Assembly: GCF_000620865.1 (NCBI RefSeq)
Contig: NZ_KK211190.1
Coordinates: forward strand, 1,439,971-1,503,970
Origin: Exiguobacterium sibiricum 7-3
GTDB lineage: Bacteria > Bacillota > Bacilli > Exiguobacteriales > Exiguobacteriaceae
Direction: 5' to 3'
DNA length: 64,000 nucleotides
The translations under genes were made by a program, and so were the position numbers. Of the stretch, positions 40,473 to 46,333 are shown piece by piece. Position 1 is the stretch's first letter. Each line of letters starts with the position of its first letter. The notes below the pieces were generated by a model, which saw only the letters and a program-made list of their open reading frames with translations, ran no database searches and was not told the DNA's origin.

Positions 40473-40559
40473 CGTTGAGCGAGTATATTTTTTAAAAAAA
40501 GGAAGATGACCTTGTGAATATGGTAATATAATGGATAATTCATTAGAGGAGGAATCATC

Positions 40560-41819
40560 ATCAAAAATAGATTACGGATTCTCGCTCTCCTTTCGAGCAT
40601 TGTGTTAACCGGTTGCGGACAAGAACGCTTGCTGAATCTTCAGCCTGTCCCTTCCTACTGGTCCGCGCATTCTTTTGCTTCCAACGAATACTCGGATCAG
40701 GAAGTCCCCGTTCAACAAAAGAATCAATTCTTGCAGACCTGTCTGCAGAAAAAAACGGTGTCCCTTCCAAAATCGTACCGGACGCTGCAGTCATTCGGGA
40801 TATTTTTCACGTTAAATGATCTGGAAATAGCGCCGTTTCCGACCGAAATCGTGTATTTGGCACAAGGCGATCAGATGTACCTAGCATGCCGCTCGCCGAA
40901 GACACAGGAGTTGCGTGTCCATCCGGTGAAAGCATCGGAGCATCCATGGGTTCGTTTGACGGAGAATCCCGATCAAATCGCGCTTCAAGCACCCGTTTCC
41001 GTCCCGCTGACAGAAGAACAACAGGACCAGCATGTCTCCGTCAATCAGGCAATGAGCGCTGACAATGAATTTGCTAAGGATCTGAAGCCATTCCATATGT
41101 TTCAACTGCCGATGGCGGGACAACTGTTGTTCGTCATGACAGAGTCCGGTCAAGAGCACATCATTCGAAACATTCCGCTGTCGTCCCTTCACCAGCAGGG
41201 CGAGTTTTATCTCGTGAGCCGCCGTCAGATTGACGGATCGACGTCCCGCTCCTTAACCTTTTCGCGTGATGGTTGGGACATGGCGGATCGACAAATCATG
41301 ACAGCCGACAAATTCACCCGGATTAAAACGAAGCAGCATTCTTTACCGAAAACGTTACCGGTCAATCAAACCGTACCCTTCGTAACCCTTCAAGGCATAA
41401 AAAAAGAACGGGTAGCAGAAGAGAAGATACTGTCCATTCGTTATCAGCCGGTTTACCGTCCAGTGAAGGAATATCAAATCGAAGATGAACCGACGCGCGG
41501 AGTGACTGCTTACTTCCATCCCACAATGAGAGCGTTTGAAAAAGCGAAATTAAGTGAGATGGTCATCCTGCCGAATAAGCTGTCCCGGGCGATTACCGAA
41601 GAGTTAAAGGCTGTGACGTTGGAAGAACCACAAGGAACGCGTAGCCCTTTTTCGTATATGACGTTGCTTGAATACGGTAACACCCAAACGTTTAACGTGT
41701 ATCTGAAAAAACGTGCCAACAAAACTGATCTTTACTTGCAAGATCAACGAACAAAAAAAAGCGCCAGATTGTCAGGTGAGTTGGCACGGCAAGTCAGTGA
41801 AAAATTAGCCGAACCTTAA
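40560..41819 (+). CDS. Lipoprotein paralogue 1, apparent AUC start codon
   Basis: A 419-residue predicted lipoprotein. GAGGAGG (40546-40552) lies 7 bases before ATC 40560. From there the frame reads IKNRLRILALLSSIVLTGC, a complete type II signal peptide. No ATG, GTG or TTG exists between the in-frame stop at 40536 and GTG 40602, which lies four codons before the lipobox Cys and would destroy the signal. The mature part shares YRTL, the CRSPKT segment, and a C-terminal KRANKTDLYLQDQRTKKSA block with the protein at 43875. A TATAAT-like -10 is at 40527-40532. Function unknown. Confidence 0.75.
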   Translation: MKNRLRILALLSSIVLTGCGQERLLNLQPVPSYWSAHSFASNEYSDQEVPVQQKNQFLQTCLQKKTVSLPKSYRTLQSFGIFFTLNDLEIAPFPTEIVYLAQGDQMYLACRSPKTQELRVHPVKASEHPWVRLTENPDQIALQAPVSVPLTEEQQDQHVSVNQAMSADNEFAKDLKPFHMFQLPMAGQLLFVMTESGQEHIIRNIPLSSLHQQGEFYLVSRRQIDGSTSRSLTFSRDGWDMADRQIMTADKFTRIKTKQHSLPKTLPVNQTVPFVTLQGIKKERVAEEKILSIRYQPVYRPVKEYQIEDEPTRGVTAYFHPTMRAFEKAKLSEMVILPNKLSRAITEELKAVTLEEPQGTRSPFSYMTLLEYGNTQTFNVYLKKRANKTDLYLQDQRTKKSARLSGELARQVSEKLAEP

Positions 41820-41892
41820 TCCGAAATGATCCAGGTATTATCCCTTTCGAAATCTGATAGTTGTATTTAAAAGGGTGTACACCCCAAAAAAG

Positions 41893-41931
41893 AGATCAAG
41901 GGGACAGATTCCAAATCTGTCCCCTTGATCT
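41893..41931. repeat. Perfect 18-bp-arm hairpin between convergent genes
   Basis: AGATCAAGGGGACAGATT and its exact complement around the loop CCA. It resembles the palindrome at 12579-12626 (CAAGGG-GAC-GATTC core), and in both cases it lies between convergent genes without a clear T-run. Confidence 0.7.
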
Positions 41932-41976
41932 TCATAAAAACGGACTTTTGGTGTCCGCCTCTTGTGTGTCCAATAA

Positions 41977-42795
41977 TCAGACCGTTTGACCTGATTTTAA
42001 ATAAGAGACCAGTGTTTCCGTAAACTTCTCACGTTCGTCGAGGAACATCCCGTGTCCACTCTCTTCAAAAACTTCGAGACGTGAACCGCTGATGTTTTCA
42101 TGCATGACTTCAGCAAACTCGAACGGACAGACTTGATCTTTTTTACCGTGCATGATGAGTGTATCGACCGAAATCTTCGGCAGACCGTCCCGTAAGTCTT
42201 CGTCCCGTAAGGCAATCGCCGACTGGATCGTACCGTGGGATGAAGCATCGACACTCAAATTATGGAACCATTGCTGGAGCGGTTCCGGATGCTCTTTCGC
42301 AAAAAAGATTTCCCCGAATCCTTTTAACATCGATGGACGGTCCTGTTTCGTGTCCTCAATCAAGGCATCGACTTCCTCTTTCTTCATGCCGTACGGATAA
42401 CCGTCGCGTTGCGTGAAGACCGGTGCAGCCGCCCCTGCTAGGATCAGTTTTGAGACGTTTGACTCTCCGTGGTTCAAGAGGTATTTTAAAGCGATTCCGC
42501 CGCCCATCGAGAAACCGAGCAACGTGACGTTCGTTAATTTCAATTGCTGAATTACTTCGTTGATATCCGACGCCATCGTCGTATAGTCATATCCGGTCGC
42601 CGGCGCATCCGATTTACCGTAGCCGCGGTAATCGACGCCGATATAACGGTAGCCTTCTTCGAGCAGACGGTTTTTCTGATATTCGAACATGTTATTGTTT
42701 GCCGGCCATCCGTGGAGCATGACGACCGGTTGTCCTGAACCGATATCTTCCACATAAATCTTCGTTCCGTCAACTGCCTGAATAAATGTACCCAT
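41977..42795 (-). CDS. Alpha/beta hydrolase (haloperoxidase/esterase-like)
   Basis: A 272-residue alpha/beta hydrolase. The oxyanion motif HGWPANN (about 28-34) is followed by YGKSDAP and the nucleophile elbow GFSMGGGIA (Ser near 95). The acid lies in HGKKDQVCPF and the catalytic His in EESGHGMFLDE near the end. This is the pattern of non-heme chloroperoxidase-like esterases. No signal peptide. The site GGGGG precedes the start. It sits between paralogues 1 and 2 of the lipoprotein family, on the opposite strand. Confidence 0.87.
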   Translation of the reverse strand: MGTFIQAVDGTKIYVEDIGSGQPVVMLHGWPANNNMFEYQKNRLLEEGYRYIGVDYRGYGKSDAPATGYDYTTMASDINEVIQQLKLTNVTLLGFSMGGGIALKYLLNHGESNVSKLILAGAAAPVFTQRDGYPYGMKKEEVDALIEDTKQDRPSMLKGFGEIFFAKEHPEPLQQWFHNLSVDASSHGTIQSAIALRDEDLRDGLPKISVDTLIMHGKKDQVCPFEFAEVMHENISGSRLEVFEESGHGMFLDEREKFTETLVSYLKSGQTV

Positions 42796-43023
42796 CTGTA
42801 AAAACCCCCGTTATTTTAATTGATGTAACTTCCGTGCACAATTAGAAGATACCCGGTTATAACAGGAAACTAACATCTTAACTTTAAACTGTTTTCGCAA
42901 AGTCTGTCGTTTTTGAAAGGTTTATTGATTTATTTTTAAAATAACACATAATGGAAATAGGTATTATTCAACTAACAGGGCGGGATTGATGAATGGAAAT
43001 ATGCGGAAAAGGCGGTAGGTTCT

Positions 43024-43497
43024 ATGGAGATAAAAACTAAACGATGTACTGTACGTCGGTTTGAAAAAGAAAATCTTGATGATTTTATGCAATATAGAAA
43101 TGATGAAAACTGGATGCAGTTTCAAGGATTCAAAGGATTGACCAAGCAAATGTATGCTAAAGAATTACTTAGCGAACCCTCTCTTTTAAAAGGTGTACAA
43201 CTTGCTATAATCAACAATACAACTAATCGATTGATTGGTGATATTTATTTAAAAAGGGATCATTGCACTTTTTGGGTGGGATACACTATAAGTCCTTTTC
43301 ACGCTAAGCAAGGCTATGCATATGAAGTACTTGCCGCAATTGTAGCCTGGGTCAAGCAAAAAGGTTGTGTCAGAATAAATGCGAGTGTGTCACCTGAAAA
43401 TCTTCCTTCAATCAACTTACTTAAAAAGCTTAAATTTACTTTTCTATCTTCAGATGAAGGAGAACATATATATATATTGGATTTACAAAAGATGTGA
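43024..43497 (+). CDS. GNAT-family acetyltransferase (RimJ/RimL type)
   Basis: A 157-residue GNAT_3-like protein: TKRCTVRRFEKENLDDFMQYR at the start, split here as the typical N-terminal strand and helix, then HAKQGYAYEVLAAIV as the acetyl-CoA motif. NASVSPENLPSINLLKKLKF matches motif B. The gene is strikingly more AT-rich than its neighbours, with many AAA/ATA codons, which suggests recent acquisition. The ribosome site (GGTAGG) is weak. Confidence 0.75.
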   Translation: MEIKTKRCTVRRFEKENLDDFMQYRNDENWMQFQGFKGLTKQMYAKELLSEPSLLKGVQLAIINNTTNRLIGDIYLKRDHCTFWVGYTISPFHAKQGYAYEVLAAIVAWVKQKGCVRINASVSPENLPSINLLKKLKFTFLSSDEGEHIYILDLQKM

Positions 43498-43512
43498 ACT
43501 AATTCTCAATAA

Positions 43513-43758
43513 TCAATTCGCGTGAAAAACGATAAAAATATATATGCCGATTCTTTTAGCGATTTCAGACAATGTATAACCTCCCACCATCATCTCCATA
43601 CACTTTGCCCATGTATCAGGACATCCGGACCCTGAAAATGGCATGTTGGTCATATCGTTAAAGGTTTTATTGCAACCCTTACAGAGATAGCGTTGACGCT
43701 TTTTATATTTCCCGTTTCTTTTGATTGCTGTGCTGCCGCAGTGGACGCAAGTCATCAC
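43513..43758 (-). pseudogene. Truncated IS1595-like transposase N-terminus
   Basis: An 81-codon fragment with the N-terminal zinc ribbon of IS1595/ISXO2-type transposases (CVHCGSTAIKRNGKYKK, then YLCKGCNKTFNDMTNMPFSG). An HTH start follows (TLSEIAKRIGI). The frame ends where the catalytic part should begin, and no rest of the transposase follows. No terminal inverted repeats were recognised. It is a decayed insertion remnant. Confidence 0.75.
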
Positions 43759-43874
43759 GCCGTCAACACCTCACTAGATTATACCAACTCTCTATTTTCA
43801 GATTTGAATTTTATTGGAAGTAAAAGGGTGTCCCCATGGTAAAATATTGTTAAAAGAAGGAAGGAGCGATTACT

Positions 43875-45110
43875 ATTAAAAAATCTGTACTCGCAATCAG
43901 TTTTGCCAGCAGCCTGTTCCTGACGGGATGCGGGACAGAATCCTTATTACAGTTAGAACGCAATCCGAATTACTGGGAAGCTGTAAACTTTTCGGATGAA
44001 TTATTTGAACCAGTACCAAAACAACAGTCAGCCTACCTCTTAAAAACATGCGAAAACACAAAAAAGACGGCTCCCCTGCCGAAGCGATACCGAACGCTTG
44101 GTGAATATGGACTTTACTTTAACTTACAACAAATCGGCACCTATACCCCACCGATTGAATTGCAATACATCGCAACAGGAGATACGTACTACTTAACGTG
44201 TCGTTCACCGAAAACGAATCGGCTGACGGCGCACCTGATTCAATTAAAAAAGCATCCTTGGCTGAAACCAACTTCAGGTCAAGAACGTACACCGATCACA
44301 GAACCGGCTTTAACCGTCCGTACATATAACAAGGCAGCAAAACGGAAGGAAGAGGTTCTAGGTGTATCAAAGAACGTGCAGCGTCTGTCAATCGAGTTTC
44401 CGGTGACCGGGCAGATCGTGTTCTTGGAACAAGAAGAAGACGGACAACAGAAACCCCTTTTTGGATTACCGGCATCGTTTTCCTATCCGGAAATTGAACT
44501 GTCATTTGAAAAGACGACGGATGGGCTGCCGTCTATGACCTATGCACTTGTAATCAAGTCAGACCAGTACTTTAATCAAGAAGACATCGTAAACAGAATG
44601 GGCAAACAATCCATTGAGTTGACCTATCACCCGCTTCCTGACGCCTTACCGGTGAACAAGACGATTCCGTACGTGACCTTCCAATCAAAAGACACGGAAA
44701 AGCCGCTGAATAAGACGATTTCTCTGCGTTATGAGACAACAGTAAAAGATATTCGTGTCCGCGGCTTTAACGGGATTGGAAATGATAACAAGGAAATCCA
44801 TGGATTTCTGCATCCGAACGACGCTGCACTAAAAGACGGAAACTTCCGGCAATTATCGCTGTTACCGGACAAGCTTGCCAAGCAGGTTTCGAACGATTTA
44901 AAGGAAGTAACGCTTGAAAAAAACCAAGGGAAACAGGCGGGTATCCGGTATATGACGTTGATTCAAAACGGGAAAAGCCAATCGTTTGAACTGTACGTAA
45001 AAGCACGCGCCAACAAGACCGATATCTATGTCAAAGATACGAAAACGAAAAAAACAGCGAAACTGTCCGGTGAAGTCGCAGCCGACCTCCTGACAGAAGT
45101 GGAGGAATAA
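43875..45110 (+). CDS. Lipoprotein paralogue 2, apparent AUU start codon
   Basis: A 411-residue predicted lipoprotein. AGGAG (43862-43866) stands 8 bases before ATT 43875; the frame then reads IKKSVLAISFASSLFLTGC, a full lipoprotein signal. Between the in-frame stop at 43851 and TTG 44160 there is no ATG, GTG or TTG. Starting at 44160 would remove the signal and about 95 residues conserved with paralogue 1 (KRYRTL, LTCRSPKTN follows after it). C-terminal block ARANKTDIYVKDTKTKKTAK. It is followed two bases later by paralogue 3. Function unknown. Confidence 0.75.
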   Translation: MKKSVLAISFASSLFLTGCGTESLLQLERNPNYWEAVNFSDELFEPVPKQQSAYLLKTCENTKKTAPLPKRYRTLGEYGLYFNLQQIGTYTPPIELQYIATGDTYYLTCRSPKTNRLTAHLIQLKKHPWLKPTSGQERTPITEPALTVRTYNKAAKRKEEVLGVSKNVQRLSIEFPVTGQIVFLEQEEDGQQKPLFGLPASFSYPEIELSFEKTTDGLPSMTYALVIKSDQYFNQEDIVNRMGKQSIELTYHPLPDALPVNKTIPYVTFQSKDTEKPLNKTISLRYETTVKDIRVRGFNGIGNDNKEIHGFLHPNDAALKDGNFRQLSLLPDKLAKQVSNDLKEVTLEKNQGKQAGIRYMTLIQNGKSQSFELYVKARANKTDIYVKDTKTKKTAKLSGEVAADLLTEVEE

Positions 45111-45112
45111 CC

Positions 45113-46333
45113 ATGCGTCAACTGATTCCAGTAGTGCTTGGAGCCGTCCTGTTGAGCGGATGCAGTCCGGAGGCAAAACCGATCGAATACACCTACTTAC
45201 CGGAAGTGTATGATACGTTGAACCTGACTGACTTCAAGAAAGATGATCCGAAGCTTGGTGTTCTCATTAAACAGGTGTGCGCGACGAAACCGGTTGCCGC
45301 ACCGAAAGAGTATGCAATCGGCAAACAGTATTTCGTTAATCTCGTCAGTCAGTTTCCGGAATCGATGGGCGAGCAGGCCGTCTATCTGAAAACCAAACAG
45401 GGTGGTTTTTTGTATTGCCATGATTATGTGTCAAAACCAGGTTATCACAAATTGACACGAAAACAGGACCGTTTTTCATCCAAACACCTGGTCACTCCTA
45501 AAAATCAGGTGGAGTTTCAGAAGTTATCTTCCAACTTCGAAGAAAGTGTCCGTCTCTCCGGCAGATCCTTGATGAAATCCGCGCGACAGCTTACGGTCCC
45601 GACAACCGGCTATCTCGTCGTCCGGGCAACAAATGAACAAACGAAGCAGACGGTCGTCACGAACATCATGGAACTGACACCGTTTGTCGGACCCGTCCCG
45701 CTTGTCCTCGAATCAAATATTCAGATTCAAGAACCGTATGAGGTCCAGCTGAACCTGATGGGACAAATCCGTTATCGCGCGTCGATCCATTCGTCGAAAG
45801 AGCGAAGTACGATCCAGTTCAAGCAGGCACCGCATACAGACGGCACTTACGGTACGGTCACGGTCAAAGAAAAAACCGGAAAGACGACCCGCTACAAGCT
45901 GACCGTCAAGCACGAACAACAACTTCCGCCTAATCTTGACGTGCCGCCGGACGAACTGTACGACGCGGACTATTCTTTACCGCGTTTCGCCCTGTTCCAT
46001 GACCGGCCGCTCGGAAAGTTGAAATTTGTGAAGGGCGATTTAGACATGGCGGAGCCGCTCTCACCCGAAGCCTACATCGAGACGTCACTCGAAGAATCAA
46101 AACGGTTGGTCCGATTGATTGAGGACAGTGAAGAGGCAGAGCCAAAAGGACGATTGGCCGAGCGGCAGTACTTGACGTTGATGAAGGACGAAAAAGCACA
46201 ACAGTTCAAGATTTATCTCGACCGGCGGATCAAAAAAACCGATGTCTATCTCGAAGATGTCCACCGGAAGATCAGTTTTAAGTTGCCTGCAGAAGGGCGC
46301 GATTTGCTGCTTGATACCTATCAGGTCAAATGA
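45113..46333 (+). CDS. Lipoprotein paralogue 3, normal ATG start
   Basis: A 406-residue lipoprotein beginning MRQLIPVVLGAVLLSGC. It is more diverged from the other two but keeps the overall length and two Cys (KQVCATK and LYCHDYV) at matching places. It also keeps the C-terminal DRRIKKTDVYLEDVHRKIS block. It is co-transcribed with paralogue 2, with the ribosome site (GTGGAGG) inside the end of that gene. Surface-exposed; no known domain recognised. Confidence 0.75.
   Translation: MRQLIPVVLGAVLLSGCSPEAKPIEYTYLPEVYDTLNLTDFKKDDPKLGVLIKQVCATKPVAAPKEYAIGKQYFVNLVSQFPESMGEQAVYLKTKQGGFLYCHDYVSKPGYHKLTRKQDRFSSKHLVTPKNQVEFQKLSSNFEESVRLSGRSLMKSARQLTVPTTGYLVVRATNEQTKQTVVTNIMELTPFVGPVPLVLESNIQIQEPYEVQLNLMGQIRYRASIHSSKERSTIQFKQAPHTDGTYGTVTVKEKTGKTTRYKLTVKHEQQLPPNLDVPPDELYDADYSLPRFALFHDRPLGKLKFVKGDLDMAEPLSPEAYIETSLEESKRLVRLIEDSEEAEPKGRLAERQYLTLMKDEKAQQFKIYLDRRIKKTDVYLEDVHRKISFKLPAEGRDLLLDTYQVK

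Follow-up and report, generated by a model that had tools for sequence, protein, structure and literature searches.

The window analysed here is a stretch of 64,000 nucleotides (nt) of Exiguobacterium sibiricum 7-3 (C7:1439971-1503970, in a genome of 3.08 Mb). It carries two paralogous lipoprotein genes, called A and B below, which very probably start at AUC and AUU, and a distant third paralogue, C, which starts at ATG. The features concerned are as follows.

40547..40552, plus strand: Shine-Dalgarno sequence AGGAGG of gene A, duplex energy with the 16S tail -12.1 kcal/mol
40560..40562, plus strand: probable ATC start codon of gene A (the four A copies compared have ATC three times and ATT once)
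40560..41819, plus strand: lipoprotein A, 419 amino acids, lipobox LTGC with Cys as residue 19
43837..43845, plus strand: TGGTAAAAT, extended -10-like element before gene B, found by eye, with identical letters in 7/7 B copies
43861..43866, plus strand: Shine-Dalgarno sequence AAGGAG of gene B, duplex energy -14.5 kcal/mol, equalled or exceeded by 12% of 757 canonical starts
43875..43877, plus strand: probable ATT start codon of gene B (the seven B copies have ATT four times and ATC three times)
43875..45110, plus strand: lipoprotein B, 411 amino acids, lipobox LTGC with Cys as residue 19
45113..46333, plus strand: lipoprotein C, 406 amino acids, ATG start 2 nt past the stop of gene B

In gene A a spacer of 7 nt separates AGGAGG from ATC, which is directly followed by IKNRLRILALLSSIVLTGC; in gene B the spacer between AAGGAG and ATT is 8 nt long, and IKKSVLAISFASSLFLTGC comes directly after ATT. 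An in-frame TAA precedes each start, as a first-pass annotation of this DNA had described, and the seven codons in between hold no ATG, GTG or TTG in either gene. That annotation had also claimed a strong Shine-Dalgarno sequence 7 to 8 bases before both starts. The spacing holds for both genes and the strength for gene B, the motif of gene A being only average: when duplex energies were computed with the 16S tail located in this same genome, 44% of the 757 canonical starts (median -11.8 kcal/mol) were equal or stronger. Similarly, the claim that the signal region is free of ATG, GTG and TTG is right for gene B, in which no canonical codon occurs before a TTG 95 codons in, at 44160. It is wrong for gene A, in which the GTG at 40602 forms codon 15 and encodes the V of the lipobox VLTGC. 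A mechanical caller of open reading frames (ORFs) chooses this GTG as the start of gene A, although it is unfit for a signal peptide because only 4 residues remain before the Cys. Gene A has three consecutive ATC codons, at 40554, 40557 and 40560. We set the start at 40560 and not at 40557 because the spacer is then 7 nt long and the Cys becomes residue 19, which is its place in each of the 12 further copies described below; our start scan of 864 kb of the genome had placed it at 40557. The third paralogue does have the normal ATG that was attributed to it, at 45113 behind a GGAGG that sits within the 3' end of gene B. At the protein level A is 34% and C 21% identical to B, and protein B is 99% identical to proteins encoded by Exiguobacterium antarcticum DSM 14480 and Exiguobacterium sp. 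KRL4.

We compared the start region across 19 Exiguobacterium genomes (G000-G018), all of which have a homologue of A and B, and use AUY for a start at AUU or AUC. Nine genomes (G000, G004, G005, G008, G012, G013, G014, G015 and G018) contain 13 full-length copies: four of these genomes have A, seven have B and two have a single copy. Every one of the 13 starts at ATT (7) or ATC (6), and in each of the remaining 10 genomes the start is ATG. The first-pass annotation had proposed an orthologue alignment as a check on the AUC and AUU starts, and its reading survives that check: ATT or ATC is kept within the AUY lineage and ATG is found only outside it. The lipobox Cys is residue 19 counted from AUY in 13/13 copies (lipobox LTGC, or LSGC in G015), and counted from ATG it is residue 19 in 9/10 of the other genomes and residue 20 in G006. 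Because these distances match, AUY occupies the place that ATG has in the other genomes. All 13 copies are predicted from sequence to have a charged n-region, a hydrophobic stretch and a lipobox ending in Cys, and their frames are open for 410-421 residues. At the functional site there is no canonical start, the Shine-Dalgarno sequence is well spaced and the codon is kept in orthologues. Around AUY the G at -12, the G at -9, the A at -6 and a Lys second codon (AAA or AAG) are invariant. In 9/9 AUY genomes an ATG, read by eye, follows at most 3 nt after the stop of B or of the single copy. A separate observation concerns G002, whose ATG-started single copy (L027/L049) is cut short by a TAA 167 codons into the frame.

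The start codons of the 13 copies end in T or C, never in A or G. Among fourfold-degenerate columns conserved in all 13 copies, 0/34 lack both A and G, which supports the earlier suggestion that the weak start is deliberate. The weight of this test rests on the full set, because columns lacking both purines amount to 33/121 when A is taken alone and to 11/92 for B alone. The proteins are under strong constraint: the ratio of nonsynonymous to synonymous divergence (dN/dS) was 0.11-0.15 in 8/8 computable pairs (0.14-0.15 for A and 0.11 for B, each against three orthologues), while dS within B reached 1.95 and the comparison of A with B was saturated and not computable. On the protein tree, in which the long G006 branch is placed unsurely, the AUY and ATG labels require two changes; in 43% of 200 bootstrap trees a single change suffices. 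AUY is probably older than the duplication that gave A and B. Sequence comparison locates the start site and shows that it is kept as AUY, that the proteins are under selection, that the remaining genomes of the genus have ATG and, as described below, that infC has an AUU at its probable start. The start sites of A and B are very probably AUC and AUU, selected to remain AUY. We consider it likely that both A and B are genuine lipoprotein genes with selected AUY initiation, an evolved brake that would keep their synthesis low and would probably be sensitive to initiation factor IF3.

Several observations weigh against this reading. The Shine-Dalgarno sequence of gene A is ordinary. The 13 copies are related, and about three switches between T and C account for their codons (judged by eye on the tree). 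A third base restricted to T or C is frequent at Ile codons (6/8 conserved Ile columns in B), and no Ile column is conserved across all 13 copies. Canonical codons also occur near the start: between the upstream stop and AUY in 4/13 copies (three ATGs in the A copy of G018, GTG three codons up in the B copies of G014 and G018, TTG five codons up in G015), and between AUY and the Cys in 7/13. No such codon is common to all 13 copies. Most lie in the Shine-Dalgarno region or just ahead of the Cys; the chief exceptions occur in the A copy of G018, with its three upstream ATGs and an ATG at codon 7, and in the A copy of G014, with an ATG at codon 10. Because of the pattern at Ile codons, the third-base test speaks for a selected start only in combination with position, Shine-Dalgarno sequence and upstream stops.

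The AUY starts may be real and merely tolerated: little lipoprotein is needed, a weak start drifted in, and ATG was never restored, with no regulation involved. Homologues in the sister genus are also weakly started, as though a low output were suited to the family. Starts assigned by eye in 11 loci (L102-L112, those matched by a search with protein A, including two near-identical groups of four) are GTG in 8, TTG in 2 and ATG in 1, a hint that weak starts may be common in the family. In addition, this genome can acquire a sporadic ATA start. Within a tandem group of paralogues, a gene of 204 residues (L124:13558, minus strand) likely starts at ATA behind AGGAGG in G000 only; its closest relatives among 16 loci have ATG in G012 and GTG in G016, G007, G010, G011, G001 and G017, and the copies in G012 and G017 carry an internal stop. 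This ATA appears to be a private weak start, the pattern expected of an accident, unlike the starts of A and B. Drift should let the third base reach G or A, however, and the start lacks both in all 13 copies as no conserved fourfold column does. Both paralogues moreover keep AUY across synonymous saturation while their proteins remain under strong purifying selection. We therefore regard mere tolerance as quite unlikely.

The genomic background was sampled in the window and 40 sampled stretches (864 kb; 795 genes called, 792 scored). The best start was ATG in 617 genes, GTG in 80 and TTG in 60; 29 had only a weak Shine-Dalgarno sequence, and 6 were without a canonical codon in the region. A clearly better Shine-Dalgarno sequence ahead of ATT, ATC, ATA or CTG flagged 29/792 genes. 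Reading these left A and B as the clear cases, and among the 792 scored genes theirs are the only starts found conserved as non-canonical, where four flagged genes besides A and B were re-read and one of the four was compared with its orthologues. The remaining flagged genes were dismissed by eye, mostly for an ATG, GTG or TTG within a few codons. A smaller scan (393 genes, 391 scored, 9 flagged) again gave A and B as clear cases. A genome pattern search with GGAGG-N5-9-ATH-AAR-AAR, too narrow to capture A or B, gave one match, which is not a start, against three for the reversed pattern. As a side observation, a membrane-protein-like gene (L128:6947) has the extended Shine-Dalgarno sequence GGAGGTGA before an ATA, a flagged candidate start, with in-frame ATGs 5 codons up and 10 codons down.

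It is far less probable that translation begins elsewhere, whether upstream through the stop, at a downstream GTG, TTG or ATG, or by a frameshift from a small upstream ORF, and that AUY is an ordinary Ile codon. The Ile columns of B, with their typical T or C, would agree with this, as would the three upstream ATGs of the A copy of G018, which are in frame with no intervening stop. An in-frame ATG also lies upstream of B (ATG GTA AAA TAT TGT TAA) in 7/7 B copies, and an out-of-frame ATG at 40531 opens a frame that overlaps gene A. The sequence before B, ATGGTAAAATATTGTTAA (43836-43853), is the same in 7/7 B copies and can also be read, in the frame of B, as an ORF of five codons; it is probably a -10 element. 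The ATG is better read as part of TGGTAAAAT, and TAA closes that frame in every copy. The overlapping frame of A closes at once in G014 (ATG GAT AAT TAA), and in the A copy of that genome the stop abuts the Shine-Dalgarno sequence (TAA GGA GGA ATT ATC ATC), which leaves no room upstream. No downstream canonical codon is common to every copy, and apart from the ATG at codon 7 of the G018 A copy none leaves more than 9 residues ahead of the Cys. The distance from AUY to the Cys equals that from ATG in 9/10 of the other copies. Sequencing error, assembly artefact or pseudogene decay is a negligible alternative, for we found nothing in its favour in the AUY copies, the sole broken copy is the ATG-started one of G002, nine separate genomes agree, all 13 frames are open, and dN/dS is 0.11-0.15.

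With initiation at AUC and AUU as the preferred reading, we turn to the surroundings of the two starts. Before A, TGGTAATAT is an extended -10-like sequence present in 4/4 A copies (by eye). Both TGGTAAAAT and TGGTAATAT resemble extended -10 elements and stand some 30 bases ahead of the starts, which would mean short leaders. A promoter scan that required a -35 match found no site for B and, for A, just one (40512-40539, 9-of-12). RNA folding of about 80 nt at the starts of A and B gave no stability beyond that of shuffled sequences (z 0.44 and -0.02), and over 46 nt the RNA was slightly more stable than shuffles (z -0.85 and -1.08). A thermosensor or occluding hairpin at these starts accordingly has little support, folding being near the shuffled level. 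Between A and a convergent hydrolase-like gene lies an 18-pair stem-loop (41893-41931), perhaps a terminator, with a T run after it on the minus strand. Between the hydrolase-like gene and B are a GNAT-like gene (43024-43497, plus strand) and a zinc-ribbon transposase-like frame (43513-43758, minus strand), both named by eye.

The family to which A and B belong was found only in Exiguobacteriaceae, within the genomes sampled. A profile of 21 members finds it in 38/38 genomes of the order (two genera, one family), where protein A alone finds it in 34/38. Of 299 genomes sampled evenly from the class 27 have it, all 27 from the same two genera. Proteins A, B and C had no Pfam match above the curated cut-off, and the 21 members gave a best E of 0.021 there. 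Against NCBIfam the best E for the three proteins was 0.0045; this hit lies on the signal peptide of A and scores 17 bits where the cut-off is 27.7. No relative was found in a search of the PDB (best E 0.56 with B alone and 0.97 with the 21-row profile), and a structure model from a 5-row alignment was poor, with a mean predicted local distance difference test score of 53. No plasmid homologue of B was found.

To our knowledge, few bacterial genes with a conserved AUU, AUC or AUA start have been documented. In Escherichia coli the AUU start of pcnB limits the synthesis of its product, poly(A) polymerase; this is the likeness to A and B, and the difference is that pcnB is neither a lipoprotein gene nor one of a paralogue pair. 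A second, probable case is present in the genus itself. In 19/19 genomes infC reads ATG GAG GTG CTA ACC ATT AGC AAA GAT, with GGAGG TGCTAACC ATT, an ATT that we take as the start on account of its Shine-Dalgarno spacing and its match to the known AUU start of infC. The GGAGG stands 8 bases upstream of this ATT (Shine-Dalgarno energy -13.4 kcal/mol), and the ATG and GTG overlap the Shine-Dalgarno sequence. The infC frame alone is no proof of an ATT start because it is open for 31 to 66 codons upstream. If the ATT is the start, the genus would initiate at AUU with a spacing similar to that of A and B. The likeness thus consists in an AUU behind a strong Shine-Dalgarno sequence at about the same spacing. 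The differences are that infC is autoregulated by its own product, while no link of A or B to translation is known, and that infC was found in every genus genome searched, while the A/B family is confined to Exiguobacteriaceae in our samples. We also observed that gene B of G013 and infC share the letters ACCATTA. In E. coli the start of infC is ATT, according to excerpts of PMC5472188.

The same excerpts describe IF3 as repressing the GTC start of Streptomyces sigR, where canonical codons disturb the SigR:RsrA balance (PMC5472188). The sigR-rsrA pair resembles B and C in having a weak start on the first gene, a second gene with its own start and ribosome-binding site, and an arrangement kept in relatives; the extensive ribosome-binding site given there for sigR can be counted as a further likeness. 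It differs in its codon, GTC, in encoding a sigma factor and an antisigma factor, and in that the effect of IF3 was measured there and is extrapolated for A and B; gene A, moreover, has no such partner in the window. In Staphylococcus aureus reporters, cvfC1 (AUU), ccpN (AUA) and citZ (AUA) give about 10% of the AUG output in poor medium, and ccpN up to 30% in rich medium, in excerpts of PMC13009471. Like A and B, these Firmicute genes have non-canonical AUH starts, which are conserved in the case of cvfC1 and ccpN; they do not encode lipoproteins, and their Shine-Dalgarno sequences are extended (PMC13009471, same excerpts), whereas that of A is average. An interchange of AUU and AUC between relatives, as seen in A and B, is not described for the S. 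aureus genes in that portion of PMC13009471. Among the matches listed in the open-licence literature there was nothing on AUU or AUC starts of lipoproteins or in Exiguobacterium, a weak negative.

These precedents suggest how the starts of A and B may work. Ribosomes would initiate at the AUC and AUU behind a good Shine-Dalgarno sequence, and the third base of AUY would mispair with the CAU anticodon of the initiator tRNA, giving weak 30S complexes of the kind rejected by IF3. Raising IF3 in a reconstituted system reduces the full-length fraction obtained from AUU read by CAU, in excerpts of PMC10158994 that give no value for AUC read by CAU. The output of A and B would stay low, falling when IF3 is high and rising when it is limiting. 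The brake on B would also make B scarcer than the AUG-started C 2 nt downstream, as GTC does for sigR relative to rsrA. A role of the start codon as a regulatory brake is likely, and control by IF3 plausible by analogy. We infer the expression of A and B, their low output, its IF3 sensitivity and the B:C ratio, the low and IF3-sensitive synthesis from work on other bacteria.

Non-canonical regulatory starts are already known from infC, pcnB, sigR, cvfC1 and ccpN; what is new is their occurrence in a lipoprotein family, found only in Exiguobacteriaceae, in which both paralogues keep AUY. A third base limited to T or C over two paralogues offers a comparative sign of selection favouring a poor start codon, the ATG-started genomes of the genus provide a natural contrast to the AUY lineage, and the same comparative test could reveal further genes of this type. 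There is also a practical trap, in that a caller restricted to ATG, GTG and TTG starts B 95 codons late and A inside the lipobox, so that both signal peptides are hidden. The transcriptome of E. sibiricum has IF-3 up only at -2.5 °C, in excerpts of PMC2615787. For the lineage that includes E. antarcticum we offer one tentative and rather unlikely extension, namely that AUY would put a set of lipoproteins under the control of IF3 abundance, with the envelope remodelled when IF3 rises, for example in deep cold, and with the AUU of B setting the ratio of B to C.

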